Assembly (NCBI GenBank): GCA_015680905.1
Contig: CM027377.1
Location: 31,086,501 to 31,150,500, forward strand
Direction: 5' to 3'
DNA length: 64,000 nt
Source: Coptis chinensis
Taxonomy: Eukaryota > Streptophyta > Magnoliopsida > Ranunculales > Ranunculaceae
Each line of letters begins with the position of its first letter. The stretch's first letter is position 1. The notes below the pieces were generated by a model that ran no database searches, was not told the origin of the DNA, and saw only the letters and a list, made by a program, of their open reading frames with translations. The translations under genes and the position numbers were made by a program. Below are positions 10,921-55,744 of this stretch, piece after piece.

Positions 10921-11584
10921 TGATAAATACAAATTTAAGCAAATTAACTATCTATGCGTAAACACAAATAATCAATTAACTAAATAAGTGCTTAATCAAT
11001 ATTTCTACTCTCAATTCATTATACAATATATAAAGAGTACGGATTCGTTCCACTCATAAACTATCAAGACATAAATAGAATTCAACTAATCAAACAAAAT
11101 GAACAATGATGAGAATAATATATGATGTGAAAACAATAGATATAATGATGATAAAAAGGTATAGAGAAGATTCAATCCACCACGCAATTTGATTGACCAT
11201 TAGGTTGATTATCGAATTGCCTATTGATCTCTAGTGAACACCAAGTCCTCTCGGATTAAGGCTTCACTAGCATGAGAGTTTAGCTCCACCACAAATCTCT
11301 TTGGTGGTGGCTCTAAACTCTAGTTCAAGTCTTATGATCTTTACCTCTAAACAATCAGAAGAATCAAACTTAAAACGCTAATACAAATCCATAACCATAC
11401 TAATTACCAATTATCCTCACATGGCTCTATAAACCTCCTCTAATGGAGGTTTAACCTTGTGTCATAAGAATAATATTAACTAAAGATTGAATAGAAGACA
11501 TAATTTAAAGATACTTGAATTAAAAGTAAACTAAAGCTTTTATTAATAATTCTAATGGAGGCTACAAACTAAATTTATAAACTA

Positions 11585-11634
<50 letters not shown>

Positions 11635-12252
11635 AATTTATTCTAAACTAAAGAGGGGAGTATCCCATCTTTGCTTTAGCTTTAACCCTTTTTATTAGGA
11701 GAGGGTTAGGTTACAATTTCGTGTATGGGCTTTTAGGCTAGGTTATTGACCCATAAATCAAGTCCATAACCCAATTGGGTAAATATAATCCAAGACTTTC
11801 AATTCTGGTCGTGTTACTATAGCACACGATTTCATTAACTTATACTACTCTGATCGAGTCAAGGTCTAGACCATTGGAAAGAACTTTCTGAGCCGGTCAT
11901 TTTGATATAAAATGGGCCTAATTCCGAGGCCTGACTCAAAATATATGACCTTTTGAAGTTCTATTGACTTTTCTTCAGCTCTCTAATCCGGTTTGACTTT
12001 CACTTAACAGTGTTGACTTGGGCTTTTTAAGGGCTCTTTCTCCATCAAACTTGGGCTTTCTTCATGGAACTTCTTTAGCAATCATTTTAGCTCCTTTTAG
12101 CGCCTAATTAGTAACGAATTGACATTTATTCAACTCCGAAGCCTGAAATACTCAAAATATGTAATTAGTGATAAACCTATATTATTAATAACATAATTGG
12201 TTAAATAGAAATACTATTAAAGGGTTTAAACTACAGTTTTGGGCTCTTATCA
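10921..12252 (-). repeat. 3' LTR of Athila-like element 1 (1332 bp)
   Basis: Nearly colinear with 18533-19855. Differences include a shorter segment near 11130 (the other copy has about 20 extra bases), a (GA)n tract at about 11588-11632, and scattered substitutions. The TATA-like TATATAAAG of the other LTR is changed here to AATAAAAAG. Ends are TGATAA...TTATCA. Confidence 0.92.
11588..11632 (+). repeat. (GA)n microsatellite inside the 3' LTR
   Basis: About 22 uninterrupted GA units. A GA tract sits at the same LTR position in the partner copy (about 19226-19267), so it predates insertion and has changed length and flanks since. Confidence 0.9.
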
Positions 12253-14151
12253 AACCACCACCAAACAACATTTTGCTTTTCCTCAAGCAAATATGTGAAA
12301 TTAAAATAAGTGGCCAAAAATTTATTTTTAACTAGTCTCGTTTCGCTGAGTGCGACTGCATTGACCATATGCAATAAGGCCTTAAACCACTAGGAATTCC
12401 CTAGTGGACGAGTTATAGCCTCGTGAGAGTTTTCTAGAGAAGGTACTCACAAACTTCATTTATACTACAACAACTAAGAAATAAAAGTAATTGCTCCCTA
12501 ATTTTATATCGGAATCTATACATCTCACTAGTATTTAAACAAGGATGATCATTCTAAAACTTAAACTAATACATGCATAATAATCAAATCATCTTAAGAA
12601 AAACAACTATACAATGAACTATGATATGAAATGCAATGGCAGGTCCGTTTCTGAAACTTTTGAGTAGCGTGCTTAAGTAGGTTCTCACAAGGAATGTGTC
12701 AAAACACATAACACTCTGATTTTTCCACTCAAGTTTGCTAACTCCAGTGTGCAGTGGGTACACGTTTTCTCACAATCTCAATGACAATCTAAGGAAGCCG
12801 AGGTCGATCAAACACATCTACCACTTACTATCACACAAATCTATTCCTAATTGAGCTAGATGTCTTTATTAGGTGATACGGGGCGTAGATGTTGGTTAAA
12901 GAAGGAAGGAAATGGATATTAAAAAAAAAACAAGTATGAGAAAATAGGGTCTTCATATTATGTAACTAGAGAAAACCTCGTTCTTATTTTACTTCTACAC
13001 TTTGTTTCCATCCTTAGCCTTTTTATTTTGGCTTTTTGACTCATTTTATTCTATTTTTAGAGTTTTTATTTTATTTTATTTTTCTTTTCTTTTCTTTGGA
13101 TGGAAACTTTTTTTTCTTTTTCTTTTCTGAAGTAACTAACTAATTTTTGTTTACACATGTTTTTATCTTTTCTTTTCTTCACTCATCCTATTTCTCAGAC
13201 TTATCCAGATAGGTAGGTTGATTTTATTTTTTTTTATTTTGTTTTATTGGGTAAATGATTTTTGGTTTGTGAAAAGGCTAATGAAAGGCCCAGTGGGGCG
13301 ACTAGCGGATAATAAATTTCATATATATAGGTGTGAATTTCTGGCTATATCGATCCAAAGAGGGCCTAAATTCTCGCTTAGAATATGGTATGGTGATCAA
13401 TCAAGTGGATGTGTGATTTCTCTACTTGGAATTTACTTCTCCCTTGTGTCATCACTCAGATATTTTACTCTTATGAGGCTTTTAGGCTAGATGCTCACAG
13501 GATATGTATTAAGTACTCTAACCTAGGTCTCGAAAAAAATCTTTAGTGATCTGATCAAAGATGCTCATGCAAAATGTTAGTGAAAAGATCAATGACTATT
13601 ACCTATATATTAATCTAAGTTTCAAAAATTAAATCCTAATTCAAGTACTACATGAGATTTCTAGACTAATATCATCATGGAGAAAGGAACAATACCATTA
13701 TCACTAAGTGCCTAGTATAAACAATATTTATGATTTTTAATATTTTATAAAGAAAAGTGTGTAATTTACATCCTAAAAGTGCCTAATTTTTGCAAATGTT
13801 TCTATCCCACCCCCAAATAATCGAACGCTTTGTCCTCAAAGTATAAAGAGATAAAGAAAGAATTTACCATAGAAATGTGGCAAAAATTGGCGACTGCACA
13901 TAATTGAAATATTATAAAGATGATATGATAACATGAAGCACAATTAAACTGCTATTGCATACTAACTAAATTGGAGTAAACATGATGAGGAACAATGGGT
14001 GGCAAACCATTTTGAAATGAAATACCAAAATACGCCACCCCCAAACAAAATTGGAAAACTCTTTTTAAGTTTGAAATTTTTTTTTGGCCTATACTCTAGA
14101 AAAGTGGTATTGTATAAAAACTTGGGTCTTTTAAAGTCGGATTCCCTAGAC
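12253..14151 (-). other. Non-coding 3' region of Athila-like element 1
   Basis: Next to the 3' LTR, the minus strand reads GTTTGGTGGTGGTT, a plausible purine-rich priming tract. The rest has a long pyrimidine-rich section on the plus strand (about 13000-13260) and no convincing ORF. It aligns by eye with 43911 to about 45500 of element 2, including ACTAGGAATTCCCTAGTGGA and GGCTATATCGATCCAAAGAG, so it is a conserved family feature rather than random filler. Confidence 0.75.
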
Positions 14152-14976
14152 TTAATGTGATATATATGTATTAACATGCAGTTTATCATATATCAATAAT
14201 CTAAATAATTGTGGATCTTTCCATAAATAGTTAACATGGAAAGCACCATCAAACAAAATCAAGCAACAAGATTTCCTATGACGTGGTTTAGTGGAATGGG
14301 AGTGAATTCTGATGGATCTAGAACCTAATCGAGCATACAGTTTCTTCTTTGTCTTCCTACTAAAGGGATGCCAAGTGAATGAACGTGAGAAAATGGATGG
14401 TTGTGGAAGATACATGGGATGTGGATAATTTTGAGAAGGAAAGAATGGAAAAAATGAAAAAGTGTCAGGTGGCTTGTCCTTGGGTGTTCCTTCTTCACCA
14501 GATGGGTTTAGAAAGTTATGAAGCATAGGAGAAACAAGAAGGTCAAGTACAAACTCAATGGTTCTTTGAAAAGGTAGAGGGCGAGGAACATTCATGATGG
14601 AAGGTGAATGAGTGACATGAGGATGTGAGGTGGGTGAATGGTGCTCAACTAGTGTTCTTAGTTCTATATCATCAGAGGCCTTGAGATATACAAGACATTC
14701 CTCAATAGGTGGGTAAGAAGAATCACTGGGATAGAGGGTGAAAAATTCTTCTTCCGTCATGGCGTCAAGAGATGAGTGGATCCCAATAGGAGGGGACTCG
14801 CGAGGTGGCAAAGAAGGGTTGCAAAAGAGTCGAAGGAAATCTTTCTCGATGTTATCTACGTCTAGAGAGTATAAATTGTGATCCTTGTCTTCTTCCATAA
14901 GAGGGGTATCTACTAGTGTGGGGACTAAAACATTGGTCGCACTAATGTGAGATACAAAACTCTCAATGGACTTCAC
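14152..14976 (-). CDS. 274-codon ORF of unknown function in Athila-like element 1
   Basis: An uninterrupted frame that follows the protease region in the place where pol would be. It opens MKSIESFVSHISATNVLVP; an acidic, Pro/Ser-rich middle follows, with MTEEEFFTLYPSDSSYPPIE and several His-rich turns such as HHSPTSHPHVTHSP. The C-terminus is basic, with FSRKTKKKLYARLGSRSIRI and KPRHRKSCCL, and then a hydrophobic tail. I see no RT, integrase or known env-like motif. A first part could be the usual spacer between protease and RT, joined by deletion to a later region. The frame stays open although gag and protease are frameshifted, which is odd. No functional claim is made. Confidence 0.5.
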   Translation of the reverse strand: MKSIESFVSHISATNVLVPTLVDTPLMEEDKDHNLYSLDVDNIEKDFLRLFCNPSLPPRESPPIGIHSSLDAMTEEEFFTLYPSDSSYPPIEECLVYLKASDDIELRTLVEHHSPTSHPHVTHSPSIMNVPRPLPFQRTIEFVLDLLVSPMLHNFLNPSGEEGTPKDKPPDTFSFFPFFPSQNYPHPMYLPQPSIFSRSFTWHPFSRKTKKKLYARLGSRSIRIHSHSTKPRHRKSCCLILFDGAFHVNYLWKDPQLFRLLIYDKLHVNTYISH

Positions 14977-14989
14977 CTTTCCTTATACA

Positions 14990-15370
14990 GGCAAACCTAG
15001 TTGTCCCTGTTTGAGTCTAAACATGTTAACCTCCACAAAAAGATTTCCAAAAGAAAGAGTCATTGAGCCATCCCGACAATTTATTTGGGCATTGACAGTT
15101 GCCAAGAAAGGACGCCCTAAGATGGTGGGAATAGAATCATGAGCATCTTCTGTGTCAAGAATAACGAAGTCGGCTGGGTACTAAAAATCCTGAACTTTAA
15201 CGAGAATGTTTTCAACTACACCCTTGGGATACTTAATAGAACGATCGGCTAACTGCAAAGTCATTTTGGTTGGTTGAAGTTTTGTTAGACCTAGTTGTTT
15301 ATATAAATAAAAAGGGAGTAAGTTAACACTTTCGCTCCCGTGTCTAATAAAGCGATTGTTATGAAGGTAT
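14990..15370 (-). pseudogene. Aspartic protease region of element 1, frameshifted
   Basis: Minus-strand frames show the catalytic motif LLDTGA at about 15345, immediately followed by a one-base insertion (GCGAAAGTG), then in another frame the family pattern QLADRSIKYPKGVVENILVK and ILGRPFLATVNAQINCRDG. This is the retropepsin-like protease of Athila elements, which cuts the polyprotein. The catalytic Asp is kept but the frame is lost just after it, and a stop interrupts at about 15185. Confidence 0.75.
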
Positions 15371-17296
15371 CACCTAAGGTGCATTAATCTGATAGGGCGA
15401 CCGAGGTCCTTGTATTTAACAATTCCGTTATGTTCAGATAAATAGGGATATTGTTCAGTTAAGAAGGCTTCATTGGGTATGTTGGTTTTCCTCTTCTTGG
15501 TGCACAACTCTTTTAGAAACTTAGTGTGTCTAGGTAGACTTTTTATAGCATCTAGAAAAGGTAGGTTTATAGTCAGATTTTTAAACACTTCCCTAATCTC
15601 ATCAAAATTCTCGTCTTTTTTAGACACAACTAGTCTCTGGGGATACGGTGGTTTATCTCTATATTTAGCATAAGGTTCAAAAGTATTATTAGTCTTTGCA
15701 TTATTTTTAGCCGTTTTCCATCTAGGTGTTCATATTGGAACCTCTACAGGTGTAGGATCATCAATTTTTATGGTGGTATTTAGTAAGGTTGTACCTCTTG
15801 GTTGTGGTTGGACTGGAACTTCTACAGTTGTAGGGTATTCAGTTTCTATGACAGTATTCGGTATGATTTCATTTTCAGCTTCCGTTTGCTGGCGATCTAT
15901 AAGCATAGTCACTTTGTTATCAACTACTCTCCCTGAACGAAGGGTAGTGACTGCCTGTAGGTCCCCTTGGTTTATATTACCATTACAGTGAATACTGTCT
16001 ATTTTGAAGGCGGTGTTTGTTAACTTAGGATTAGGCCTTTGTTTGACACGGAAACACTTTGTTTGGTTATTATTTTGGTTAGGAGACATGTCAATAACCT
16101 TTTGGCACAAAGATCGCATCGTTTGTTTCATCATATTAGAGTTTTGATCATCTTTGATCTTTCATCAAGTTGGAGTTTTGTTGCATAATTTGATTTTGTT
16201 TTTCCAACAAAGTCACTACTACTTTGTCTGTAGATGGTTGAATTGGAATTAAGGCTTGTTGAGCGTTCATGTCTTGATGTTGATAGTTTTGGGTCATGGG
16301 CACTAAACCTCTATTCTGGTCACTTAAGTTTCCTTGTCCTTGAGGTTGAGTTAACTGGTTGAAGTTTGATGGTTGTGGTGGTGGTTGTGCATAGACAAAA
16401 GGACAATAGAAGTTGGAATGCTCAAGACTAAAACAAATATTACAACGAGTAGATTTAATGTTTATGACTGGAGTGGGTTGTTGTTGAACAAAGAGAACAT
16501 CTACTTTTTTAGTGAGGGCATCGATAAGAGTTTTAAGCTCGGGATCATGTTTAACCTCGAAAGAAGAAGGAGTGGAGCGGGAAGAGTCGTTATCGCCCCA
16601 ATTGTTGTTCCTCTTAGATTGATCTTCTGAGAAATTATAAGCCTCCAAGGCTCCTTTACTAAGAAAACTACCCCAGTCATGATATCTAGAACCTCCTTAT
16701 GACGATGCAAAATCCCCTTGAAGAAGGCACGAACAAGCGTGTCTTTCGCAAGATTATGATGCGGGCATTCAATGAGAAGATCAGTGAAACGATTCCAGGC
16801 ATCTGAAAAGGATGCATGAGGATTCTAACGGAAGAAATGAATCTTTTGAAGCATTTCATCTGTCTTCAGGGGTGGGTGGGTAAAACTGTTCCATGAACAA
16901 TTGAACAAGTTGAGCCCATGAGTCCACAGAGTTTGGCATTTGGGCAGTTAACCAAGACGCTGCCTTGTTGGCTAGGGTGAAAGGAAACACCCTAAGTTTA
17001 ACTTGATCCGGACTTATGCTAGGATGATGGAATGTAGTGAGAACTTGTTTTATCCTACGCATATGCTGGTAAAGTTTGTCGTGGTCTAAACCATGAAAAT
17101 CCATTAGCAAGTTAAATATATTAGGGGGAATTCGAAAATCCCCCACTAGGTCTACAAGAACGATGCACGACTTAGGGCCATCGTTTAGGGCTTTATAAAA
17201 ATCAGAGAGAGGAGTCTCTTGTTCTTTAACCATTGATGCAGGTATAGTGTGTGAAATTCTAGATAGGCGTGTGGTATTTATGTCTACAAAAAACAA
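15370..17296 (-). pseudogene. Gag of Athila-like element 1, split into several frames
   Basis: The N-terminal core (17296 to 16856) has the Athila gag pattern with IPPNIFNLLMDFHGLDHDK, IKQVLTTFHHPSISPDQVKL, NKAASWLTAQMPNSVDSWAQ and QLFMEQFYPP. Frame is lost near 16856. The frame from 16648 to 16148 carries a CCHC-type knuckle, CNICFSLEHSNFYC (C-x2-C-x4-H-x4-C), amid Gln/Pro-rich sequence. Frames 16134-15730 and 15627-15370 continue with a Thr/Val/Pro-rich linker and IREVFKNLTINLPFLDAIK, a conserved block just before the protease. Gag would package element RNA. Frame breaks make it non-functional as it stands. Confidence 0.8.
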
Positions 17297-18512
17297 GCCT
17301 GTTTATACTAGAATTAAACTCCTTTGACAGAAGAAACGAGGAGTGAAAGAAGTCTGAATGCCTCCTTGCTACGAGTTTGAATAGCGTCTTGTATACACGA
17401 TCTCAGTGTATTCAAGAAGATAAAAACACTGAATAACTTGAGTTTGAACTAACCTGTGAAATCGGGCTTATTCACAAGAGGGTGCGGGCGTGCTTGGAAT
17501 TAGCCTATAAATGGTGCGGGGCGCGCTCTTGCTTGACTCGAAGTCCAGGCGCTTGAGGGCGGGGCGCGCTCAAGAATTGCCTATGGAGGGCGCGGGGTGT
17601 GCTCTTGCTTGACACAATATCCATGTTGTTGAGCGCGGGCCGCGCTTGGAAATAGGATATCTAGGGGGCGGGTGCGCGCTTCAAAAAATTTGAAATTTTA
17701 CAGTAGTTTGCTAAGACGTCTACTAAGTAGCCTGTAAAATTTCAGAACAATCGGAGCTATGAAAGTCTTTCTAATTCCCTTCAAAGTTTGTGAAATAGTT
17801 TTCGGACACAATACAAACACCTGAATGGTTAACCAATCAAAACAGAGCCTAAAATCACCAAAATTTTACTGGAGACTCCTGACAGATCATGCGTATTCCT
17901 GTAAAACTTTTAGAGTAATTGGAGTTCTACAAACTCTCCTTATTGGCTGTTGTTCCAGAAATTAAGTGTTACAAAACTGCAGAAACATACTGGAAACAAT
18001 CCACTAGTTAGGTGGTCAAAACAAATAAAAAACTCGTAAAAGTTTTATTGCAAACTCCTGACTTATGATAGATGCTCTTGTAAAAATGTTAGAATTTTTA
18101 GAACTGCCTAAGTAACCTTACCCGTCAGTTTTTCCCAAAACTTACTGTTTGAAAGTTGAAATGCAGCATTGTAAAGATGGTATTAGTTCACAAGGTAAAA
18201 CAATTAGGAAAATTCTGAAACAATTCCAATAAATTAATAACACCTTAAATATTATACCTTAAAAGTTTCAGAATTTTCGGAAATTTAAAAATACCTTTAC
18301 CGCAGTATTCTTCATTGTGATTCCGCAGACACAAGGGAGGTCGGGCGCGCTTAGAACAAGGCAAAATGGAGGGCGGGCGCTCCCGTGCCTAAAACAGTGA
18401 ACAGTACCAAAAATTGAAGAAATAAAAAAGAAAAATTAAAAGGGTGGGTGGGTTGAGAATAGGGGATTGCCCTTTGGATTCAACCAATTGAATTCTTGTC
18501 CTGAAAGAGTTT
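17297..18512 (-). other. 5' leader of Athila-like element 1 with GC-rich repeats
   Basis: Between primer site and gag, 17470-17690 is strikingly GC-rich in an AT-rich context, with repeated variants of GGGCGCGGGGCGCGCTC and GGGGCGGGTGCGCGC, and a further block at 18340-18390. The remaining leader is AT-rich, with no ORF. Such GC-rich units recur in the leader of element 2 (about 55460-55600). Confidence 0.6.
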
Positions 18513-18530
18513 AAGATGGCAGCGGCGCCA
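18513..18530 (-). promoter_or_regulatory. Primer-binding site of Athila-like element 1
   Basis: Minus strand: TGGCGCCGCTGCCATCTT, two bases inside the 5' LTR end. It matches the start of the tRNA-Asp type primer site TGGCGCCGTTGCC known from Athila elements, and fixes the element's orientation as minus. Confidence 0.85.
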
Positions 18531-18532
18531 TT

Positions 18533-19221
18533 TGATAAATACAAATTTAAGCAAATTAACTATCTATGCGTAAACACAAATAATCAATTAACTAAATAAG
18601 TGCTTAATCAATATTCCTACTTTCAATTCATTATACAATATATAAAGAGTACGGATTCGTTCAACTCATAAACTATCAAGACATAAATATAATTCAACTA
18701 ATAAAACAAAAGGAACAATGATGAGAGTAATATGTGATGTGAAAACACTAAATAAGATGTCAAAATAGTAGATATAATGATGATAAAAGGGTATAGAAAA
18801 GATTCAATCCACCACACAATTCGATTGACCATTAGGTTGATTATCGAATTGCCTATTGATCTCTAGTGAACACCAAGTCCTCTCGGATCAATGCTTCACT
18901 AGCATGAGAGTTTAGCTCTACCACAAGTCTCTTTGGTGGTGGCTCTAAACTCTAGTTCAACTTTTATGATCTTTATCTTTAAACAATCATAAAAATGAAA
19001 CTTAAAACGCTAATACAAATCCATAACCATACTAATTACCAATCATCCTCACATGGCTTCATAAACCTCTTCTAATGGAGGTTTAGCCCTGTGTCATAGG
19101 AATCATATTAACTAAAGATTGAATAGAAGACATAATTTAAGGATACTTGAATTAAAAGTAAACTAAAACTTTTATTAATAATTCTAATGGAGGTTACAAG
19201 CTAAACTTATAAACTAAAACT

Positions 19222-19270
<49 letters not shown>

Positions 19271-19855
19271 CCCATCTTTGTTTTCCTTTAACCCTCTTTA
19301 TATAGGAGAGGGTTAGATTACAATTTCGTGTATGGGCTTTTAGGCTAGGTTATGGACCCATAAATCAAGTCCATAACCCAATTGGGTAAATCCAAGACTT
19401 CCAATTCTGATCGTGTTACTATATCACTCGATTTCATCGATTTATACTATTCTGATCGAGTCAAGGTCTAGACCATTGGAAAGAGCTTTCTGAGACGGTC
19501 ATTTTGATATAAAATGGGCCTAATTCCGAGGCCTGAGTCCAAAGATATGGCCTTTTGAAGTTATGTTGACTTTTCTTCAGCTCTCTAATTCGGTTTGACT
19601 TTCACTTAACAGTGTTGACTTGGGCTTTTTAAGGGCTCTTTCTCCATCAAACTTGGGCTTTCTTCATGGAACTTCTCTAGCAATCATTTTACCTCCTTTT
19701 AGCGCCTAATTAGTAACGAATTGACATTTATTCAACTCCGAAGTCTGAAATACTTAAAAATACGTAATTAGTGATAAACCTATATTATTAATAACATAAT
19801 TGGCTAAATAGAAATACTATTAAAGGGTTTAAACTACAGTTTTGGGCTCTTATCA
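18533..19855 (-). repeat. 5' LTR of Athila-like element 1 (1323 bp)
   Basis: Partner of 10921-12252. It starts TGATAAATAC and ends GGGCTCTTATCA, followed by the target duplication GTCTC. On minus, CTATATAAAGAGG at about 19292-19304 is a good TATA box. A (GA)n tract lies at about 19226-19267. Confidence 0.92.

Positions 19856-27257: not shown

Positions 27258-27332
<75 letters not shown>
27258..27332 (+). repeat. (TA)n microsatellite
   Basis: About 37 uninterrupted TA units inside the large LTR. Confidence 0.95.
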
Positions 27333-28220: not shown

Positions 28221-28520
28221 CACTACAACAAAAGGGGTCTTTTGCAACGCCCTATTTTGCAACGCCACAAAATTGTTGGTAAAAGACATCAATTGCCATG
28301 CCTCCCAATGTCACTAAATGTTTGTCGTTAACTAGATTTCTTCAGTGGCAAGCACTTGCAGCAAGTGGCAAATGGTCTAATTATTTGTTTTAAAATAAGA
28401 ATAAATATATATATTTTAATTAAATTAACCTTTTTTACAACGCGGTTGTAGTGGTTACACATAGAAGTATTCAGTAGCAACAAGTTTTCTCAGTAGCAAC
28501 AAGTGTCGCATATATGATTT
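28221..28520 (+). repeat. Left subterminal repeat zone of the CACTA element
   Basis: Motifs of the TTTTGCAACGCC and TTTTGCAACGCC(A/C)(C/A)AAA kind near 28239 and 28254, TTTACAACGCGG near 28431, and related GTAGCAACAAGT copies near 28475-28505. Confidence 0.65.
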
Positions 28521-28834
28521 TCATGTGCGGGATATTTGATTTCTCTACCAAATTTATTAGGGGCTAAAAAAGGACAAAATTAGAAAACCGTCTCTCTCCG
28601 TCCGCCCCATTTTCTTTTTTTTCTTCACTCAAAGTTTCAGCATCCCCTTAACCCTCCTTACTCCACCACCACAAACCTATGGTAAGCTCTCTCTCTCTCT
28701 CTCTCTCTCTAAATGTGTGTTAAAAGTTTAAACCTTTAATTTTAATTTTGGTTTTGGTGCGGTTTTGGGTTAATCCTCCACCACCGGAAAATAAATTTAG
28801 GGGTTGAACAATTATTTTCCAAATAGTAAAAAGG

Positions 28835-30917
28835 ATGTATGGATTCGAGGCTATGACGTTTAACATCCACGGAGGTTATTTAGAAGCAATAGTACATGGG
28901 CATAGATCCGGTCTTTTAACAAAGAGGATTATAACAATTTATGTCGATGTGAAACTCTTGATGATATTAAGATGCATCTCTCTCATCTTGAATATGGCCC
29001 TTATCTACAAAACGGTATTCAATTTCTCTTTTTTTTTTTTTTTATATAATTTTACCTTAATTCTTGTTTATTATAACCAATTGTATACAACTTAATGGTT
29101 TACTGAGCCTTCCCCATTGCATACAACTACGATTGTGGAGAAATGTACTCTTAAACCTGGTTGATGAGTATAAGCACATGTAATGTTATGCCAAGCCACG
29201 AGCCCTTTGTCGACATTCCTAGAGTATATCACGTATGTTTATTCTACTCATCGCTATATTTCCGTCGGTATATGTAAAATATAATTAAGGTTTTTCGTTG
29301 ACTCTTATAGGTATGGTCACATGATTGATAATGTTGTCCTCATTGTTCTTGGTACATAATTGCATGAGTGAGATGTGAATGAATTGTTAGAGAAATGTCA
29401 TCCATTGGGTATGTTTGACAGGTAATGTCTATGTTCCACGGTAATATATAGCTTTTGATGCTTCACTCTTTGGATGAATACTCATCTTCTACTTTCTTTC
29501 TTTCAAGATTGCTAGTCTTGCGGTTGCTCAAAATATCGCGTGAGCTTTACCGCTTAGTGCTTGTTGACACAACTTTGGCACCATACTTCTCTGAATGCAT
29601 TACATCTGAGGTATGTTCACTACCCACAATTGTTCTGGCTCGGTAAAATGATAATTACATAGTAGGCTCCAAAGCAAAGAAAACATAGCAGAAAAAACAT
29701 AATTACTAAGGATTCTAAAAAGCACTACCTAGAGTTCTTGCAGACTTTGGGCCATGGATACAAGGATGCCTTAATTGATAAATTAAACTCCTATCGTAGC
29801 GCAGACCCTCAAAATCTTTGAGGTTTGGACCTCGTGATAATAGGACCTTCATTTTGGATAGCATACTTGTATTTTGGTTGACAGTGAATGGGCACTTACA
29901 CCTTACGTTTTGTGATGATTGAACTTGTGTTCTCTGCTATTTTAACAACCCGGATAGGTAGTACAATTGAAATCATATTTAGATGAATGTGATTTTTGGA
30001 TATTGACGATCATCGGCCTATCATCCTATGAAGTCTTTTATTTCAGTTATATAAGGAAAACATTTTCATCTAATTTATTTGGCCACGTTCAGTTAATGGA
30101 TGTTAATTCTTTTCTCTTGATTGCAACAATGGGTCCATCATAATGCTTTTGTTTTAAATCAAAACTTTCCGTTCTCATCTTATGAGAAGACAAAAGTAAA
30201 CCAATGACACGAGAATATATAATATCATTTGGTTCTCGTATAGTTGGGCTATTCTTTAATATCTCTTTAATACACTCTTTGTAGGGCTTGGATGATATGA
30301 ACATTGAAATTATGAGGAACACACTTTACAAGGCATACCTCGAAGACTTTTATAGGTTTTGTCGTAAACGCCAGGTGTCTTTTGATAACACTCTATTTTT
30401 GAATATTTGCAATTGCACTTTTTAATCGGGACTTTGAAATTTCAACCACGAAACTTGGGAAGCTACCGCGAGATTATGTCCGATCTCTTGGCTTTTGAAG
30501 CCGATAGAAGAGCTGTTAATATCACAATAAACAGGTGGGTTTATTCTTGAATAAAAAACTTTTCTCCTTTTTCTGCCATTTCTCAAATAAATCGTACTAA
30601 CCTTTAGTTTTGTCATGTCCGATTGAGGGGACTGAAAAGTCTAATTGACATTTTCTCAATTATTTTGTGATCGTTAATTCATTTACCTAAACCTAGTGTG
30701 CTTTCTGTTTTTCAGCATTGGCACTTCATCCCACTCGAGATGACCGCAGGAAGCTCTATTCTAGTTTTGGCCTCTGTAAAGTGGCTCCTCAAGCATATTT
30801 CTGTTTGTTTGTTTACGTATAAGAGTTCTTGATCAAGATTAGGTGTATCATATTTTTCTTTGCAGCAGTCATCCTTATGGCCACGAGGAACTGGCTGTTT
30901 GTGAAGACATAGATCAA
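28835..30917 (+). pseudogene. VHA-d: Captured V-ATPase subunit d fragment inside the CACTA element
   Basis: Exon-like pieces, in order: 28835-29014 (MYGFEAMTFNIHGGYLEAIV, then YNNLCRCETLDDIKMHLS after a frameshift); about 29105-29230 (PSPLHTTTIVEKCTLK, LVDEYKHM, then PLSTFLEYIT); 29311-29421 (YGHMIDNVVLIVLGT, NELLEKCHPLGMFD); 29508-29610 (ELYRLVLVDTTLAPYFSE, CITSE); 30285-30374 ([20 protein letters not shown]); about 30440-30534 (EIMSDLLAFEADRRAVNITI); 30716-30775 (DDRRKLYSSFGL); 30866-30917 (HPYGHEELAVCEDIDQ). Subunit d sits in the central stalk of the vacuolar H+-ATPase and is normally about 350 residues; about the first two thirds is present. Introns are kept, so capture was at the DNA level, not through mRNA. 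Frameshifts, an altered acceptor before exon 2 and stops make it non-functional. Confidence 0.88.
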
Positions 30918-32249
30918 GTGAGTTCTCTATGAATTTTGACTCAAAAGCCCACTTTTTCACTCAAATTGTAGAGGGTCTATTGATAAGATCAAAGTCTATG
31001 CTTGTATCATTCTTTCCATCTTTGGTTATATTGTGTTCGTTTAGGTTGAGATTGTAGTTGAAATTTGGTTTGGGCAGCTTTATTTGGTAAAAACACTATA
31101 GTTTATGCTATTACTATTTTGTTATCTCACATTCTCACCATTATAAGAATGAAACTTGAGTCCCCTAACTCTCACGGGACCGGAAGAATTAAAATGTGGT
31201 ATGTAGCAAGTAGGAAGACTGGAGTGGGTGCTCTACCGATCTTTGAAAGTGCATTGTTAGGTGTTTGCTGAATGAAAGCTAATTGTTCAGCTGCTTTCTA
31301 AATTTGTGATTTTCTCTCTATGGTATTCCAAGCTCAGTACGAAAATCTGTCAATTTGATTGTGCTTATAGCTAATTGAGTTATGAATTCTTTGTGTTAGT
31401 GCTCATAGGTGATCAGGCTTTACTATGTTAATGGGACAGATATGTGATTGGATGCAAGATATTTAAGGTACTTAGATCTACTAAGAACTAGTTTAGAATA
31501 TCAATTTTATGTGTTCGAAAGCATTATGCGATTATTATCTACTACAGAATTTTGTCTTCTCCTTTATTACGTGAATTTGTTACTTAGATTCTTTGTTTTT
31601 GTTTAGTTAGTCTAAAGTATTTAGTATGTATGGTTTTGCAATGCATGGTTTCATAAGCTCTGAATGGAAGGAGCACTCATTAAATTAGGGGTGATGGTTC
31701 GAATCACTCAATCTGGATCCAATTATTTTCTTAAAAAACAAATAAACAAAAAATTATTTTAGATAATTTGGTAGCAACTAAGTTTAGAGCATTAGCATTT
31801 AGGAATGCTATATGAGTGCATTTTAGCTTTATTGTCTTTATTCAGTTACTTACTTGTGTCTTTTTTTTTAAAATTTTGTACCAGATGGGCGATCAGATGC
31901 CATTATGACTAATGAAGAATACTTGGGTGGATGCTCTTCAAATTAGAAGTTTATGGACTTTTGTTGATTTTGCTAAGTTGGTTTTTAAGAAATTTGCCTA
32001 AATAGGTTGATATTTGTGGAAATTTTGTAAGACGGTGTATTGGCAAAGACCTGTATGGTTGTGTGAAATATTTTTATAGTGTATGATTTGATTGAATGAA
32101 ATTAATATATTTTGTTATGATCATTGCGAATTGATATGGGGTGGTTGTGTTCATCTATGTAAGTTGCATTAGGTACAATCTGCAAATAAAAAAGATTCAA
32201 AATCGTGCAAATAAAAAAGCACTATTTTTCCATGGCAAGCTTAAGTAGC

Positions 32250-32674
32250 TATAAACACCTTTTTTGCAACGCTCTAGATGCAGCAGATGACTTAAACCTT
32301 TTGCAACAAACAAAGTGTGGCTAAAAGGTTTTCATTTGCGATGCTTCAAAGGCATAGGTAAAGGTACACTTTTTGCCATGCTTGATGGTGTTGTTACAAC
32401 TTATCTTTTGCAACACTAGGCGTTGCTAAAAATTTGAAATATTTTCAATATCAATTAAATTTGAAAAATAGAAGTAGCAACGACCGATGGCGTTGCAAAA
32501 GATTGGGAGCTTTTGCAACGCCACACATTCGTCGCAAATTTATCTTTGTGACCCACTTTTTTAGCAACGCCTTTGCGGCGCCCTATTTGGTGTTGCAATT
32601 GGTCAATTGCAACGCTTTTAGGACTTTTAGCGATGGTATATGGCGGCTTGCGAAAACCACTTTTCGTTGTAGTG
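32250..32674 (+). repeat. Right subterminal repeat zone of the CACTA element
   Basis: At least ten degenerate copies of TTTTGCAACG or its complement, for example near 32263, 32300, 32408, 32494, 32512, 32568 and 32608. The density is much higher than elsewhere in the window and matches the left end. Confidence 0.7.
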
Positions 32675-42434: not shown

Positions 42435-43910
42435 TGATAAAACATAAAATGAAATAATCTACCTACGATATGAACGATGAACTCAAAACGTAAGTAAACT
42501 AAAACTATTCGACGTGTCTATGTTTATCAAAGTTTCTACTCTCAATTCTATCGAAATAGAGTGGAGTAACAAATTCGTTCCACTCCTAGTTCTCTAGCAT
42601 GGAATGTTTTCTAATCTAATTAGTCGGTCTTAAGTCTAATGAGAGCTTTACGAAGGGTGTTATACTACGATACCTATATGAAATTGATTATGTTGAATTT
42701 AACTACGAATGCTATGGAAATATGATTGTTTTTGAATCTAGATAAAGGATTAGAGGGAAATTGAATCCACCTCGAATCCAACTTAATAACCTAGTATAGA
42801 TTCTTGTATCTCGATTCTTACGTTCTTACGGCAAGAATTCGAGTTCTAATCCCTAGTGTTCATGGCATTTCTACCGAATACTAACTAGCATGTGAGGTCG
42901 TCCACCCATTCTCATGGCGAATCACGACCTTCTAGATTGGAATAGATTCTACAATGCTTCTACACTATACCACTAAGTTTTAAATCAAAGGCTTCATCAA
43001 CCCCTAATGGAGGTTTTAGCCTTGAGTCATCAAACCATCATTTCCCATTGAATTATAACTACACATCATATTAAAATTCTAACTTAACTAAATTAATTAA
43101 CAATGTTTCAATCTACTTAAACTACGAAATGATAATTAACAAGAATTAAAACTAGATCTATAAATTGAGATGACAAAAATCGAAATTGACAAAATAACTA
43201 TTTTATTTATCTAATCAATCAAGAACAATGATTCAAAGACTTAATCTAAAACAAGAATTGAAAATGGAACTACAACTTAATTAAAATACTGGAAACTAGA
43301 TCTAGAATTATCTATATTGTTTTAGGTCTAACTAGCTACCATTAACAAAGAGCTAAGCTTTGGTTTTTATATTTTCAGATCCAAAAATCGTGCATGGGCT
43401 TGGAGCCATGTTTTGGGCCAGAGAAACAGGCCCAAAACCCAATATTTTCAGTCCAAAAAGGCCTATTCAGCTGCAGTTGGCTTCAATAGACTTTTCGTCC
43501 ACTTATGCTCCTCTGATTGGGTCAAGGCTTGAACCATTGAAAAGCTCTTTCCTAGCCGGTCGTTTTGACGTAAGGTAGGTCCCATTCCGAGGTCTGAGTC
43601 CAAAGATACGGCCTTCAGAAGTTCTCACGACTTGTGTCTTTGTTTTCGCCACGCCCGACTTTTCAGCTTTTGACCGGGCTTTAGAAAGGCTTTGTCTTCT
43701 TGAATCTTGGCCTTTAATCACGAAACTCCTTAGTAACCAACCCTTGCTCCTTTATCTCGCTAAAGTGGCACATTTCTGCACATAATGGACTTTGAAACCT
43801 GAAATGCATAAAAACACGTAATCAGTGTTAACTCTTAATTATTACTCACATAATTGGTCTAAAAGTATGACTGTTATTCTGGTTAAAACTACAGTTTTGG
43901 GCTCTTATCA
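42435..43910 (-). repeat. 3' LTR of Athila-like element 2 (1476 bp)
   Basis: Starts TGATAAAACATAAAATG and ends TTTTGGGCTCTTATCA. Its last 20 bases are nearly the same as those of the element 1 LTRs, showing that the two families are related. Confidence 0.95.
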
Positions 43911-46900
43911 AACAACCCCCAAACAGCATTTTGCTTGTCCTCAAGCAAAGATGAGAAATTAGAATAAGTGACCAAAAATGGAGTTTTATCTACTTTCGTT
44001 TTCAAAAGTGCGATTGCATTGACCATATATGCAACAAGGCCTTAAACCACTAGGAATTCCCTAGTGGACGAGTTATAGCCTCATGAGAGTTTTCCAGTGA
44101 AGGTACTCACAAACTTCATCTATACTATAACGACTAAGAAATAAAACTATTGTTTCCTCATTCATGTCCCAACTATCTATACATCTCACTAGCAAAATGA
44201 ATAAGAATAACCAAGTCAAAAACCTAAGCTAATATATGCATAATAATCAATCATCTATGATACAAATATAAATACTATGAGTAATACTATGAAATGCCTA
44301 GCAGGCTCGTTTCTGAAACTCGGAATAACGTCCTTAAGTAGGTCCTCACATAAAATGTTAAGGCGAAAACCACTCGATTTTTCCTCAAGTTTTCATACTC
44401 TAGTGTGCGATGGGCACACTTTACCTTACAATCTCAATGACAACAAGGAAGCCGGAGTCGATCAAACACATCTGCCATTTACTATCACACTAACCTATTC
44501 CTAATTGAGCTAGAGGTCTTTATTAGGTGTTGCGGGGATTAGGAGATGGTTTAAGAAAGAAGGAAATGGATATTCAAAAGGACAAGTCTGAGATAGTAGA
44601 GTCTTCATATTATGTAACTTAAAGAAAACCTTATTATTTACTTTTGCTTCTACACTTTGTTTCCATCCTTAGCCATATATTTTCTTTTTCTTTTTCTTTG
44701 GCTTTTGACTCCTTTTATTCTATTTTTTTTGGAGTTTTTATTTTATTTCTATTTTTATTTTTCTTTTCTTTGGATGGGAACTTCTTATCTTTATTTTCTG
44801 AAGCAATTAACTAACTTTTGTTTACACCGTTTTTTTTTTTTTTTTTATTTTATTTTTTTTTATTTTTTTATTTTTTTTTATTTTGTTTTGTTTTTGTAAC
44901 AGGGTAAAGGATTTGTGGGTTATGAAAGGCTAAAGAAAGGCTCAGAGGGGCGACTAGCGGAAAATAATTAATAGGTTTGAATTTCTGGCTATATCGATCC
45001 AAAGAGGGCCTAAATTCTCGCTTAGGATATGACATAGTGATCAAGCAAGTGGACGTGTGATTTCTCTATCCGATTTTACTTCTCCCTTTGTGTCATTTCT
45101 CAAATGTTTATTTCATATAAGGCTTTAGGCTATATTCTCACAGATTTGTAGAATAAGTACTCTAGCCTAGATTTCAGTAAACTTATCTTGCTAACAATCA
45201 TAGATACTCATGTAATATATTTATAGATAGATGCAAAGATTATTACCTACATATTAACCTAAGTTTCTAACAATTATTCTCGATGCAAAAGCTCATTGAG
45301 ACTTCTAGATTGTTAAGAGCATAGAGAAAGAAAGCAATACCAATATTCCTAAGTGTATAGCATAAACTTATTTATTTATATTTTGAAATTTTTGAAACTT
45401 TAACTAGAAAACAATGCATATTATACATATCTATATCCTAATCAGATGCCTTAATTACACGTGTTTCTATGCCCCCAAACAAGAAGCATGCTTTGTCCTC
45501 AAAGTATTGTAAATAAAGAGGGTAGGAAAAATACCATTGAAACGCGTGTGAAATTCAGAACATCATCGCAAAACAAAGTTAGAGCGTTACTAATATAGGA
45601 AATAAAACTCGGCGCAACTCTATAAGAGTTCCACCCATTATGGGGTTAAGAATTAAATATGCTTGGGACATAAGCGGACAATAACAAAACTAAAAACTTA
45701 CCTTATCTCCCGCTTAAATGTCCTCCTCCTCAGTAAAGAGATGAGGTTCCTTCGCATCCTGCCAGTCCATTATAACTTGCCAAGCTTGCCGCCATTTATC
45801 ATCTACTAATGCTAACCTGTTAAGTGTTATTATGTCGATGGGATGTACGCAGGCGACCAATTAAAGGCACCGCCATCCCGCCAAGTCATTATTCGCAATG
45901 AGCGAACCACCCCAATTGGTGGGTCTCATGACTTCAACCCTTTTCCAATCGTGAATTGTGCACGTATCACAGTAAACAACTATGCATGATGCGGCTTACC
46001 AACACGGGCATAAGAAGATACTTACGCCTCATGGTTTGGGCTCTCTTAAGACTAGCGACTAAAACTTCGGGGAATGTCATATCGGCGACATCCCTCGCCT
46101 AAAGCGAGGAAAATGTCACCAAAGAATACCGTTTTGCGAAATGAACCGCCATTCCCCAAAATATTCATCGGGATGAATAACATGGTGGTGCCTATGTTTA
46201 GGGGGAAAGGCTACCAAGGGCAATGCTATATAAGCCCTCGGTCCATTACTCGAAATACCCCCTCCCCCATAATACTCATGGAAATATGTATAATAATAAA
46301 GATATGCATTATCGGTCATATATGCCCATGTGTGAACGAGGATCGGTATTGGTAATCCACGAAACTAAAGCAACCACATTTTTTATCGAATTGATGTGTC
46401 GTGTCTTCGACTACGACGGAGAATTCTTGTTCTCCATCCCGATTACAATAGAATTTAACATGGTCGTAGAAATAAGCGAGTTTGTGGTGAATATGAATCG
46501 CCATCACTTACCGTAGATGACGCCATCCTAATCGCAGGATCCCGTGGCCGGAACCAATGTCCATAGGTCTCGGTGCCCAACACATCTTCGAAGACTGTTC
46601 GGTATGACTATAGGAGATGTCATCTTAACTCTCTTTGAACAACGGTTCAAAAATCCCGGGATGACCCTCAAAAATTGGAATTTTCCGTTAACAGTATAGG
46701 TAGCGGGTTCGCTCACATAGAGGCGGTGGTCGCTTCGTGGGTTTTAAATTACAGTGTTTTGGGCTTACATCAAGGAGGGCGCTGGTCGCTTAACTAAAAT
46801 TTGGGAAAGTGTACAAAGCGCAGCGCCTCGACGCGTCTTTGAAACGAAATTTGGAAGAAAAAGAAGGAAAAGCTTGGAGTGAAAGGTGCGGGATGATGGT

Positions 46901-47240
46901 GGGGTGTTGTGTGGTTTGTTAGTGTAGAATGAAGGGAGTTTAAATAGGTTTTGAGCTTCCAAAACGAATTGGCAAGTTCCCAAATTGTGTTAAGGCAATT
47001 CCCGGAAATAGAAAAATTCCAAACCCGAAAACGGAAACAACCCATTTTCGTGATTTTCTAAAAATCCTGGTATCTTTCATAATGGATTTAGAATAGTAAC
47101 TTCTAAACTCTTCTACATTTCATGCTACCACCACACAAATCATAGATATGCCGATATCGGCCAAATTATCAACCTTTCCTTCAAGACTACTTTACCGCGG
47201 ATGATCATATAACGAATTATGCTCGTTATAAATATTACCA
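43911..47240 (-). other. Non-coding 3' region of Athila-like element 2
   Basis: 43911 to about 45500 matches the 3' region of element 1 (for example ACTAGGAATTCCCTAGTGGA near 44060). It includes a T-rich tract at about 44830-44890. The part 45540-47240 has several minus frames of 60-80 codons with no recognised motif; they may be decayed remains of the env-position ORF. Confidence 0.6.
44830..44895 (+). repeat. T-rich low-complexity tract
   Basis: Runs of T broken by single A and G; on the element's own (minus) strand this is an A-rich tract in the 3' region. Confidence 0.85.
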
Positions 47241-47699
47241 CCCCCAAACAAGTCGGGAAGGTGGGATTAATGATAAAAACAAGCAGTACTCGAAATTAAC
47301 TACTTAATTAAAACAACACATTAATATTTAAATTTAACTACTTAATTAAAATTCAACTAATAAAACAATCAAAACCATGAAATAACAGCGAACACAACTG
47401 ATGGTGAACACCTAGTTGTGTGATGAAGATGGACCCTGAGATGGAGATTGGCCCTGGGATGGAGAATGGCTTGAACCATCCGTCGCCTTCGCAACGACTC
47501 ATGCACAATGGGACGGCTGAAACCGAGTCCTCCACGGGTGGCATGCGTCGTAGCATCTCTATTCGAACAAGCGCCGCCGTGCTTCCATCTCAACCGAGTA
47601 TCGCATCTTGGGCTTGTTGATGCCGTGGATAGTCTCCATGTTAGACAGGGATATCGCCCTGAACCCGCCCGAGCATTTCAAGTCTCGTCGAAGGTTCGT

Positions 47700-48568
47700 T
47701 TGCTTCTTTGAATTACAATCTGTCTATCTCGAATATCTTCACAAATACCATAAACACAACGCAAGGCGGTTTGCAATACTTGCATCGTTCTAAATTAGAA
47801 CTACATTTATCTAATGCATCGTCATCCAGACATGTCATATCCTCCCTTTCATCCTCCGACTCATCCATTTTTTCTTCAGACAACGGCCAAGTCTCTTGGA
47901 TGCAATCCGTATAGATACTTGCATTAGAATGCAATTTGATCTTAATAGGAGCAGATCTTGCGACAGCTCTAAAGGAGAGCATGATCTTAGTGATCAATAC
48001 GGGAAGAGGCGCCAAGCTCTTCCCCACTCCTCGAATCACATTAAACATTAAATCAAGGATGCAGAAATTATACTTATTTGTTTGCAAAATCTAGAGAATG
48101 TGCAGACATTGCAGGCCGATATCACTGACTTTGTCTTTCCGAGGGCGTTCCTACCAATCCACCGAGCTCTGACCCGGTTGATTAGTTCTCGGAGTTGGTC
48201 AGCGGACGAATGAGATGTCGGATTGCATTCACCCTCCACGACATTATCCTTCATCAAAGCGGGAACTCGAGAATCACCGGATTCCTGAATTGTCGTTACG
48301 AGTTGCTTTCAAAAGCGTAATTCCTAACAGTTCATTCGACAACCGCCTCTGCTTATTTCCTCCTCGTTCCTGCTACCTTTATGAAAATCCTATCCCCCTC
48401 CAATTCTCGCTTCTTATAAAACTGTTCTACCAAATCATGGTGATAGAACGCCTCAGTCGAGTACCACAGTCCGTTCCAATGCCTCCTAATCATTTCCGCG
48501 TCGTAAAATGGCGCGAAGCTGTCGGACTCAAACGCGTGCTCCGGCAAAATTCTTCGTCGTAGCGCCAT
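47700..48568 (-). pseudogene. Decayed ORF in the env position of element 2 (Athila ORF2 / putative plant transposon protein type)
   Basis: Minus frames downstream of integrase: 48568-48353 (MALRRRILPEHAFESDSFAP, then IRRHWNGLWYSTEAFYHHDL), about 48230-48090 (LRELINRVRARWIGRNALGK) and 48087-47713 (FNVIRGVGKSLAPLPVLITK, then an acidic Glu/Asp-rich end). The position and the 'L..I.......LP.LIT' pattern resemble the extra ORF found between pol and the 3' LTR of Athila elements, whose function is unknown. It is broken by several frame changes. Moderate confidence, because similarity is weak at each piece. Confidence 0.5.
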
Positions 48569-48768
48569 TGAAATTTCTGAGACAACTAATGGGTTTGTAG
48601 ACTGTGGGGGAGGCGAGTTTGAAGAAAAACAACTAAAACAACGGTGGCGGCGGTGGTTATTTGAATTGGTGGTTGTTTTTCGGAGTTGGGGTGGTGGTAT
48701 TAATGGTTTAAGTAAGATTTTAGTTGGATTTGATTATCTTGGTGTGGGTGTAGTTAGGTTTCCTTCTC

Positions 48769-48769
<1 letters not shown>

Positions 48770-48801
<32 letters not shown>
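48770..48801 (+). repeat. Poly-T tract
   Basis: About 27 consecutive T at 48773-48799, followed by AATTTTATTT. Confidence 0.9.
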
Positions 48802-48803
<2 letters not shown>

Positions 48804-49788
48804 TATTTCTGGTGTTTAAGGTTTGTTTTACCTTGATAACCGGCTGTATTGACTAAAAATAAAGAAACCGTCGCGTTTTTTTTTTTTGGGAAGGAAAGAG
48901 CGCACGTGATGCGTCGCGGTTTGGGCCCAAGCCCAGTTTGAATTCCTAAATTTTCCGATTTTTCGCGCAATTTCAAACTCAATTTGCCGCTTCGTTACTG
49001 GCCCGATTTTGGCGAATGAGTTATGGAAATGATTAGTAGAGAATTTCCAATCTAATGATCCATAAAACACTCAATTCCAACCATGGGTAACGTATAAAAG
49101 GGTGGAAAAACGCCTCGAAGTGCGTGTGTGACCTAAGTTATGCGAACGAAGGAATTCTAAGTTTAGATTACGCCAACCCAATTGAACTACAAGTAATGGG
49201 CCTAAGCAACACCAATGGAAAGTTCGAACAATCCAAATGGAGAGACCGATTGCCCACCCACAAACAAATTTTTAAACACAAAATTTGTTCTAACGCGGGT
49301 CGTTTAAAGTCAGATTCCCAAAACTTGTTGGATTGCTATTTCTATGATTAAGAATTTTCTATTATTATTTATTTTATTTTTATTTTATTTTTATTAGTTT
49401 ATTATAAGAAAAACGAAAAACAATAAATACATAATTCACCCCTTAGAGGAGCATGACTAAAAAACCGAGAAAACATGCAAAAGTGGAAAACGTGAATTAT
49501 GTTAACCGTGGACTTAGGATCCGGTACTTACAGCCACACACTCCATAGGGAGGGCCCGTTACCTGAATGGTGCACTTACCACTATATGGAAGTGAAAGGA
49601 AGTACACCAATGACAAAGGTCAATCCTCATAGACAGGGTCCTGCAAAAGGACTTCCTCTACATCAGGGGACAGAAGTTCGTGAAAATGTTTTAACCGTTG
49701 ACTATTAACTTCAAAGGTACTGTTGTCATTTGGATTTACCAAGGTGATTTCCGTAGTAAGTGACTTCAAGAACTGTAAAAGGGCCGCA

Positions 49789-50710
49789 CTAACGGGTTTT
49801 TAGTTTTCCGGGAAAATATGTAGATGCGGGGAGTTGTAAAGCAAGACCTTTTGACCGACTACAAACTCTTTGCGCCAAGATTTCCTTATCATGAACACGC
49901 TTCATGTTAGCTTTATCATCCTTCGCGCGAGATCGTAAAGAATCGCTACGGATTTCTTCAAGCTCATTCAATTGCAACTTGCGTTTGACACCTGCCTCAT
50001 TAATATTGAAGTTAAGGCTTTTATAGCCCACGAGCACGGTGCTCTAATTCAACAGCAATGACATGGTTTCCCAAATACAAGTCTAAAGGGAGACATACCT
50101 ATAGAGTTTTGAAAGCAGTTCTATATCCCCATAAGGCATCCGATAGACGCTTCGGCCGGTTTTCCTATCGGGGTTTACGCTTGTTTCTAAAATCTTTTGA
50201 TTTCCCTATTAGAAACTTCTACTTGTCCGCTAGTTTGTGGATGATACGGAGTTGCTACTTTGTGTGTAACTCCATACATTTTTTTCTAGGGATGCAACAA
50301 CTCCGTTGCAAAATGTGTTCCACCATCACTAATGATGGCTTTAGGAATGCCAAACCGACAGAAAATATATTCTTTAATAAAAAATACAACGGTCTTATGA
50401 TCATTGCTACGGCAAGCTAGGGCCTCTATCCATTTAGACACGTAGTCCACGACAACTAAAATATAAATGAAACTGTGGGAAACAGGGAAAGGACCCATGA
50501 AATCAATGCCCCAAACGTCAAAAATTTCTACTATTAAGATTGGATTTAATGGCATCATATTACGTTTCGTGATTCGCCCAAGTTGTTGGCAAGGAATACA
50601 CGTCTTGCAATGCACTTGGGCATCCTTAAAAAGGGTAGGCCAATAAAATCCACATTGAAGCACTTTTAGCGGCTGTTTTCATCCCACTAAAATGGCCACC
50701 ACACTTTTGT
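49789..50710 (-). pseudogene. Integrase of Athila-like element 2
   Basis: The minus frame 50663-50286 shows VHCKTCIPCQQLGRITK (zinc-binding Cys pair; the His part lies in another frame at about 50700-50664), VWGIDFMGPFPVS with the first catalytic Asp, VVVDYVSKWIEA, and FGIPKAIISDGGTHF with the second Asp. A later frame (50037-49789) has LQLNELEEIRSDSLRSRAK and ALQLPASTYFPGKLKTR, the conserved end of gypsy integrases. The catalytic Glu region ([13 protein letters not shown], about 50200) is in a third frame. Integrase inserts the cDNA into the genome. Frameshifts make it inactive. Confidence 0.85.
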
Positions 50711-50999
50711 CATGGCAGAACGATAGAACTTCATTGTATTCCCACCGGGAATACAACGATCTAATAATCTCATCCGCACAATACTTAAAAGGTATGGCTC
50801 ATCCCAAGAGTATAACTTAACTCGCCAAGAACTTCTTACGCTTCATTTCTTGACCAATTATAAGGCATAACATCAGCCGCTAAATAATTTACAATGTCGA
50901 AAGATACCATGGTGTTGAAAAAATCGCGATACGATGCTCATTAGGAAAAGAGTCCGGTATGGACTCGAATCGCCCGATCGCCGTCGTTTGTGAGTCTAG

Positions 51000-52330
51000 A
51001 TAAGTGGTCGGCAACTACGTTTTGACCCCTTTTTGTCCTTTTTATTTCTAATGTGAACTCTTTGCAGAGAAGGATCCATCGGATTAATCTCGCTTAGCAT
51101 CCTTCTTTGCAAGAAGGTACTTAAGAAATCGCATGGTCCGTGTAAACTAAAGTTTTAGAACCAACCAAATAAGGACCTAAACTTATCTAAAGCATAAATG
51201 ACAGCCTAAGAATTCTTTTCGTCAGTTTGAATAATTCCGTTGAGCATCGTTTTTACTTACTAGCATAATAAATAACAATGGGACTTATTATCTAGTTTTT
51301 GTCCCAAGACTGCACTAACCGCATAATCACTAGCATCACACATGAGTTCGAAAGGTTTAGACCAATCGAGGTCAGTATAATTGGTGCAGAGGTTAGGGCG
51401 CTTTTAAAGTTTCAAAAGCCCGCTACGCTTAAAATTAAAATCAAAGATTGCATCCTTCAAAAGCATTAGTTAACGCCTAGCTATTTTTTCGAAAGTCTTT
51501 AATAAACCGCTCTAATAGTAGAGTCCGTGGTTTAGGTAGAGAGTCGCTATCTTATCTAGTTTGGCCTTATCTACTTCGATGCCATCACTAGATACAATGT
51601 GACCTAGTACTATGCCCTTTTTTCACCATGAAATGACACTTTTCCCGCTTTAAAACGAGGCTCTTTTCTTCACACCGTGTCAAAACCTTAGACAAAGTTA
51701 GACAAACAGTCCAGGAAGGAGTCTCCATAGATAGAAATATCATCCATGAAAACTTCCATAAAGCTTCTACCATGTCACTACAATCACATTTGGAAGGTTC
51801 CAGAGCATTACAAAGGCCAAAAGGCATTCATTTATAGGCATACGCTCCAAAGGGACATGTGAAGGTAGTCTTTTCTTGGTCATCAATATCAATAATAATC
51901 TGAAAATAGCCCGAGTAGCCATCCGTAAAACAATAAAAGCATGACCAGCTAGGCGCTCAAGCATTTGATCTATAAAAGGTAAGGAAAGTGATCCTTTTCG
52001 TGGTCATAGCATTTAAACGCGTCTGAATCAATATAGATCCTCCATTTCATAGGGCCTTGGTGACAACATAGTCACCCTTCCCGCTACGCACCATGGTAAC
52101 TCCCCGATTTCTTAGGAACTACATGAATGGGGCTTACCCATTCGCTATCGAGATTGGGTATATGATACCCGCGATCGAAGTAATCGTAAGACTTCTTCCC
52201 TAACCACCTCTTTATATGGCTGGGTTCAAGCGACGCTGAGGTTCGCGAAAGTCTTCGCTTATCCTCCAAATGGATATGATGAGTGCAAATATTAGGGTCA
52301 ATTCCCTTAAATGTCGGCTAGGGACCAACC
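51000..52330 (-). pseudogene. Reverse transcriptase and RNase H of Athila-like element 2
   Basis: RT blocks in alternating minus frames: SEWVSPIHVVPKKSG (about 52130), AGHAF near 51950, TTFTCPFG-like sequence near 51860, MPFGLCNA at about 51827, and FMDDISIYGDS at about 51740, the (F/Y)xDD catalytic motif. RNase H follows with KPFELMCDASDYAVSAVLGQ at about 51355-51300, which contains its first catalytic Asp. Together they copy element RNA into DNA. At least six frame changes are visible, so no active enzyme can be made. Confidence 0.85.
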
Positions 52331-52382
52331 AATCGCCGACCGATGTTCCCTAATCACCCGGATTAAAGGTGTCTCTTCATTC

Positions 52383-55724: not shown

Positions 55725-55742
55725 AAGATGGCAGCGGCTCCA
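55725..55742 (-). promoter_or_regulatory. Primer-binding site of Athila-like element 2
   Basis: Minus strand: TGGAGCCGCTGCCATCTT, the element 1 primer site with one change (C to A at the fourth base). It lies two bases inside the LTR end. Confidence 0.8.
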
Positions 55743-55744
55743 TT

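Follow-up and report, generated by a model that had tools for sequence, protein, structure and literature searches.

The original paper on Pack-CACTA elements is said to have dealt with Arabidopsis. According to excerpts of two accounts of the Pack-CACTA model, mobilisation uses the outer ends of two adjacent insertions, and the intervening DNA is carried along (PMC8903248, PMC13317346). Elements of this Pack-TYPE group, as excerpted from the first of these sources, have CACTA ends and host-gene DNA inside but no transposase (PMC8903248). Host-gene exons and introns are likewise carried by the soybean CACTA element Tgm-Express1 (PMC1947982, in excerpt), and the grapevine CACTA element Cactavine-5 contains host gene sequence by transduplication (PMC2528002, in excerpt). 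Here we describe a locus of Coptis chinensis that resembles all three. Within a window of 64,000 nucleotides, by which we mean the whole stretch of DNA analysed, a CACTA-ended element of 4,454 bp occupies positions 28221-32674. Between its ends lie a fragment of a host gene, that for V-ATPase subunit d (VHA-d), and no detected transposase, two of the features by which Pack-CACTA elements are recognised. An earlier note had read this stretch as a transduplicating (Pack-) CACTA element, and this is still the best explanation of its ends, its lack of a detected transposase and its ordered, intron-containing exons. We put at roughly 85% the probability that a non-autonomous CACTA element of the Pack-CACTA type acquired a piece of genomic DNA that began at the start of a VHA-d copy and reached its eighth intron.

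CACTA-type ends and their repeats

The features that delimit the element are as follows.

28221-28233, + strand: left terminal inverted repeat, CACTACAACAAAA
28234-28444, + strand: left subterminal repeats, three of the TTTTGCAACGCC type in a single orientation
32257-32661, + strand: right subterminal repeats, in both orientations
32662-32674, - strand: right terminal inverted repeat, CACTACAACGAAA on the - strand

The element begins with CACTACAACAAAAGGGG and ends with TTTTCGTTGTAGTG, so written that CACTA stands at both ends in inverted orientation, as is characteristic of the superfamily. A search of the whole window for the 13-mer, allowing up to two mismatches, gave eight matches when 3.69 were expected, and at least eight were found in 3 of 100 shuffles; taken alone, these matches are weak evidence for paired ends. 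The two termini of the element are the sole exact copy and one of three one-mismatch copies, and both point outward. Alignment of the 100-bp ends, one of them reversed, scored 75.5, whereas 300 pairs drawn at random from the window scored 55.5 at most.

Subterminal repeats were counted as TTTTGCAACG-like sites with one mismatch allowed. Three were found in the left 300 bp, all in one orientation, and seven in the right 470 bp, in both orientations, and neither count was reached in any of 500 dinucleotide-preserving shuffles. Two outer flanks of 470 bp contained none and one, respectively, and a stretch from the middle contained none. In a looser control, the left-end count of exact GCAACG was reached by 2 of 500 shuffles and that of GCAAC by 8 of 500. 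The right end has the highest GCAAC density among 470-bp windows stepped every 50 bases. Direct and inverted subterminal repeats, a further mark of the superfamily, are thus present, although those on the left have a single orientation. The claim that the termini are of CACTA type is therefore borne out by outermost 13-bp segments that are inverted repeats with one mismatch and by GCAACG-type repeats concentrated at both ends.

Target-site duplications of CACTA elements are given as three bases in the excerpt of one source (PMC8978399) and printed as five in that of another (PMC8903248). The element is bordered by CAT on the left and CAC on the right, with two of three bases equal; comparing five bases on each side (ACCAT with CACCG) gives a single identity. 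An exact duplication is absent, and the CAT/CAC borders would fit a decayed one. Three observations count against the Pack-CACTA reading, namely this inexact duplication, the lack of a second copy in the window, where self-comparison beside the element itself gave only three matches of 32-44 bases, and the occurrence of single end-type repeats elsewhere: of 20 TTTTGCAACG-like sites in the whole window, ten are in the two end stretches, one is elsewhere in the element and nine are outside it. The first two would also suit an old truncated VHA-d duplicate lying in place with separate CACTA remnants on either side, in which case there was neither capture nor movement as a unit, and a truncated VHA-d copy annotated elsewhere in Coptis indicates that such duplicates exist in the lineage. 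We consider this history improbable: both ends consist of just one terminus, directed outward and accompanied by repeats of the same type; no inner terminus came to light, all other 13-mer matches lying outside the element; and the remainder of the VHA-d gene is not seen nearby.

The window contains several other features. An LTR retrotransposon at 42435-57220 has LTRs at 42435-43910 and 55745-57220 that are 95% identical, a five-base duplication, GGTTC, on both sides and an integrase core domain at 50289-50678 on the - strand. A related LTR retrotransposon at 10921-19855 has both LTRs (91% identical), the five-base duplication GTCTC and a gag domain at 16859-17302 on the - strand. The - strand at 2106-3116 encodes a KIB1-4 beta-propeller protein whose relatives are named F-box proteins; Coptis chinensis supplies its closest match (80% over 67%) and the six that follow are likewise from Ranunculales, which places the host in that order and most likely in Coptis. 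Exon-like frames at 3959-7942, also on the - strand, include PMR5N at 6743-7087 and PC-Esterase at 3962-4417, and presumably belong to one trichome-birefringence-like gene. A pure AT microsatellite of 37 units is found at 27258-27331.

VHA-d exons, introns and the rest of the interior

The interior of the element was resolved into the following parts.

28445-28834, no strand: leader with a CT-rich stretch and a CT microsatellite; transposon DNA or VHA-d 5' flank
28835-29014, + strand: VHA-d exon 1; frameshift at 28922
29015-29105, + strand: intron 1; GT donor, acceptor AG lost (reads CTG)
29106-29232, + strand: VHA-d exon 2; frameshifts at 29153-29156 and 29172-29176, inserted codon at 29180
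29311-29421, + strand: VHA-d exon 3; inserted TAA at 29357, TGA at 29369 (R120)
29507-29610, + strand: VHA-d exon 4; frameshift at 29535-29538, acceptor AG about one base off the aligned place
29611-30284, + strand: intron 4; 674 bp, GT-AG
30285-30374, + strand: VHA-d exon 5, from the spliced alignment
30451-30534, + strand: VHA-d exon 6; start at 30458 by alignment and 30451 by eye, acceptor AG not found there
30716-30775, + strand: VHA-d exon 7; frameshift at 30729-30732
30868-30917, + strand: VHA-d exon 8, followed by a GTGAGT donor; AG two bases before the aligned start
30918-32256, no strand: beginning of intron 8, then other sequence; the right edge of the captured piece would lie here

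The cargo, at 28835-30917, is made up of eight VHA-d exons that keep their order and share a strand. A read-through of these exons matched residues 1-264 of PDB chain 7uw9_d with an E value of 3.3e-151. Spliced alignment of the Artemisia annua VHA-d protein (P0002) to 28780-31100, in which GT and AG were favoured, placed residue 1 at 28835 and residue 264 at 30920, spanning eight exons with identity at 236 of the 259 aligned codons. The most likely end of the final exon is 30917, where the GTGAGT donor follows. The fragment covers residues 1-263 of 351, which is 75% of VHA-d, where the earlier note had given roughly two thirds. Residues 265-351 had no credible match elsewhere in the 64 kb (best E values 0.34 for the Artemisia C terminus and 0.23 for a Coptis piece), as would be expected of a captured fragment and not of an entire gene in situ.

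The exon borders of the fragment fall at residues 60, 101, 136, 171, 199, 226, 247 and 263; the choice of 199 was guided by the relatives, the spliced alignment alone having given 201. We compared 72 chosen proteins with P0002 and counted the 44 irregular gene models among them, leaving out the Coptis protein P0155 discussed below. Of the 103 breaks in these models below residue 300, 62 lie within one residue of the fragment's eight borders and the other 41 lie elsewhere; eight borders drawn at random 5,000 times matched 9.0 breaks on average and 42 at most. Because introns are kept at conserved positions, and a processed transcript could not carry introns, the captured material is, on this evidence, genomic DNA and not processed mRNA. 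Capture at the DNA level had been proposed before, and the coincidence of the introns with breaks in the relatives' VHA-d gene models agrees with it.

No open frame of at least 110 codons lies entirely within the element, and no transposase was detected when short frames were compared with Pfam (10 of 19 of one set, 10 of 19 of another and three further pieces), a screen that a badly decayed transposase could escape; within that scope, the interior is without a transposase, as had been claimed. Two Pfam matches under the cut-off, to CsoSCA_N (E = 0.017) and LIAS_N (E = 0.083), were dismissed as chance. Rfam gave no matches at the gathering score. Intron 4 contains, at 29666-29821, a 51-residue open frame that includes an acceptor-like TTGCAG and has no Pfam match, and which is either chance or a second captured scrap. 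By their appearance, 28560-28700 may be a leader belonging to the transposon itself and 31885-32160 may be its final exon.

Decay and probable ancestry of the cargo

The exons carry five frameshifts, at the positions listed above, together with a TGA nonsense codon at residue 120 and the inserted TAA. Exon 6 reads GSYREI where P0002 has GATAEI, which by eye fits two more one-base losses. The donor is GT in all seven aligned introns; AG is found at the aligned place in introns 2, 4 and 6, is absent in introns 1 and 5, and is one or two bases off in introns 3 and 7. The exon order and the introns given in the earlier note stand; of the splice signals that it mentions, several acceptors are damaged. 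Judged by these lesions, the cargo cannot encode intact VHA-d and is a fossil in its present state. A protein role is very unlikely, because both exons and acceptors have decayed, and any effect of the element would have to act through RNA. The earlier note had raised chimeric or antisense transcripts that might affect the true VHA-d gene. In a related proposal, compatible with the Pack-CACTA reading, the element is a putative working source of RNA, and transcripts of either strand or small RNAs made from it would repress the genuine VHA-d genes. The captured fragments of Tgm-Express1 are spliced into chimeric transcripts, according to the excerpted report (PMC1947982), and at the present locus every one of the seven donors is GT and three of the seven acceptors have AG where it is expected, in an alignment that favours both. 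Set against this, the reading frame of the exons is broken and AG is missing from its aligned position at four of the seven acceptors, in two of which (introns 3 and 7) it stands one or two bases away, and we regard such a function as highly improbable.

A query of 134 read-through residues led to Coptis chinensis IFM89_018322 (P0155, 227 aa). We surveyed individual sites in 271 proteins, 239 from VHA-d searches and 32 from the F-box search. Leucine at site 114 was found in the fragment and P0155 alone among 110 readable sequences. An insertion after residue 116 is common to the fragment (one codon, TAA) and P0155 (two residues) and was found in none of 64 others, and both have histidine at site 250, which occurs in one of 64 others. 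Asparagine at 124 is also common to the two but is present in 13 others. A Papaver VHA-d (P0024) is without L114, the insertion after 116 and H250. Two candidates were set aside during this work: P0001 (Rhodiola), at the top of the first protein search, ranked there through a repeated segment in its own letters, and P0033, flagged by pattern as a carrier of the insertion, has ordinary sequence when its letters are read.

The derived residues that the fragment has in common with IFM89_018322 are new here, and because of them the fragment probably descends from a Coptis-lineage VHA-d copy. Part of this sharing could be common to Coptis VHA-d genes in general, as the compared set is without a standard Coptis VHA-d. 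At conserved sites 64, 67, 84, 91 and 239, P0155 carries changes that are private to it; it jumps from about residue 137 to about 226, its model being without exons 4-6, and departs from VHA-d at residue 309, beside breaks in relatives' gene models (307, 308). It is thus a truncated relative, without being plainly the source. P0155 is on a contig of 85,171,767 bases and the F-box protein of the window on one of 89,969,453, which suggests that P0155 lies on another chromosome, if both contigs come from one assembly. A tentative idea, which we think somewhat unlikely, is that IFM89_018322, in view of the derived residues it has in common with the fragment and of its departure from VHA-d at 309, represents a longer sibling of the insert and no gene, and that a family of CACTA elements spread VHA-d pieces through the Coptis genome, at least one of which received a V-ATPase subunit annotation. 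Some of the VHA-d genes counted in Coptis may be truncated copies or copies carried by transposons.

Capture model and comparison with known systems

Under the Pack-CACTA reading, two insertions lying close together would have been mobilised jointly through their outer ends, the route proposed for such elements, and would so have captured DNA from a VHA-d copy of the Coptis lineage that was related to IFM89_018322. The whole 28221-32674 stretch would once have moved as a unit, with transposase presumably supplied by another CACTA element. The anatomy of the element appears as predicted by the Pack-CACTA capture model.

We found no report of VHA-d capture in the open-licence literature, among the matches listed, and no paper there that treats Coptis together with Pack-TYPE elements. 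A search of the same literature for CACTA, capture, V-ATPase and transposon gave one paper, on Tillandsia, seen in excerpt. The locus offers a clear instance, from an early-branching eudicot, of a gene captured by a CACTA element at the DNA level, and the positions of its introns provide the proof from within. It seems to illustrate a known phenomenon well rather than to represent a new one, and leaves knowledge of gene capture unchanged.

As far as the excerpted descriptions go, each known system differs from it in arrangement. In Cactavine-5, the captured piece is downstream of a transposase frame (PMC2528002), whereas no transposase was detected in the present element. Tgm-Express1 contains pieces of five genes, sits in an intron and has been shown to yield chimeric transcripts (PMC1947982), whereas the Coptis element contains one recognised gene. 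Compared with the Pack-CACTA and Pack-TYPE elements (PMC8903248), it is distinguished by holding eight exons of a single gene, together with their introns, in 4.4 kb.
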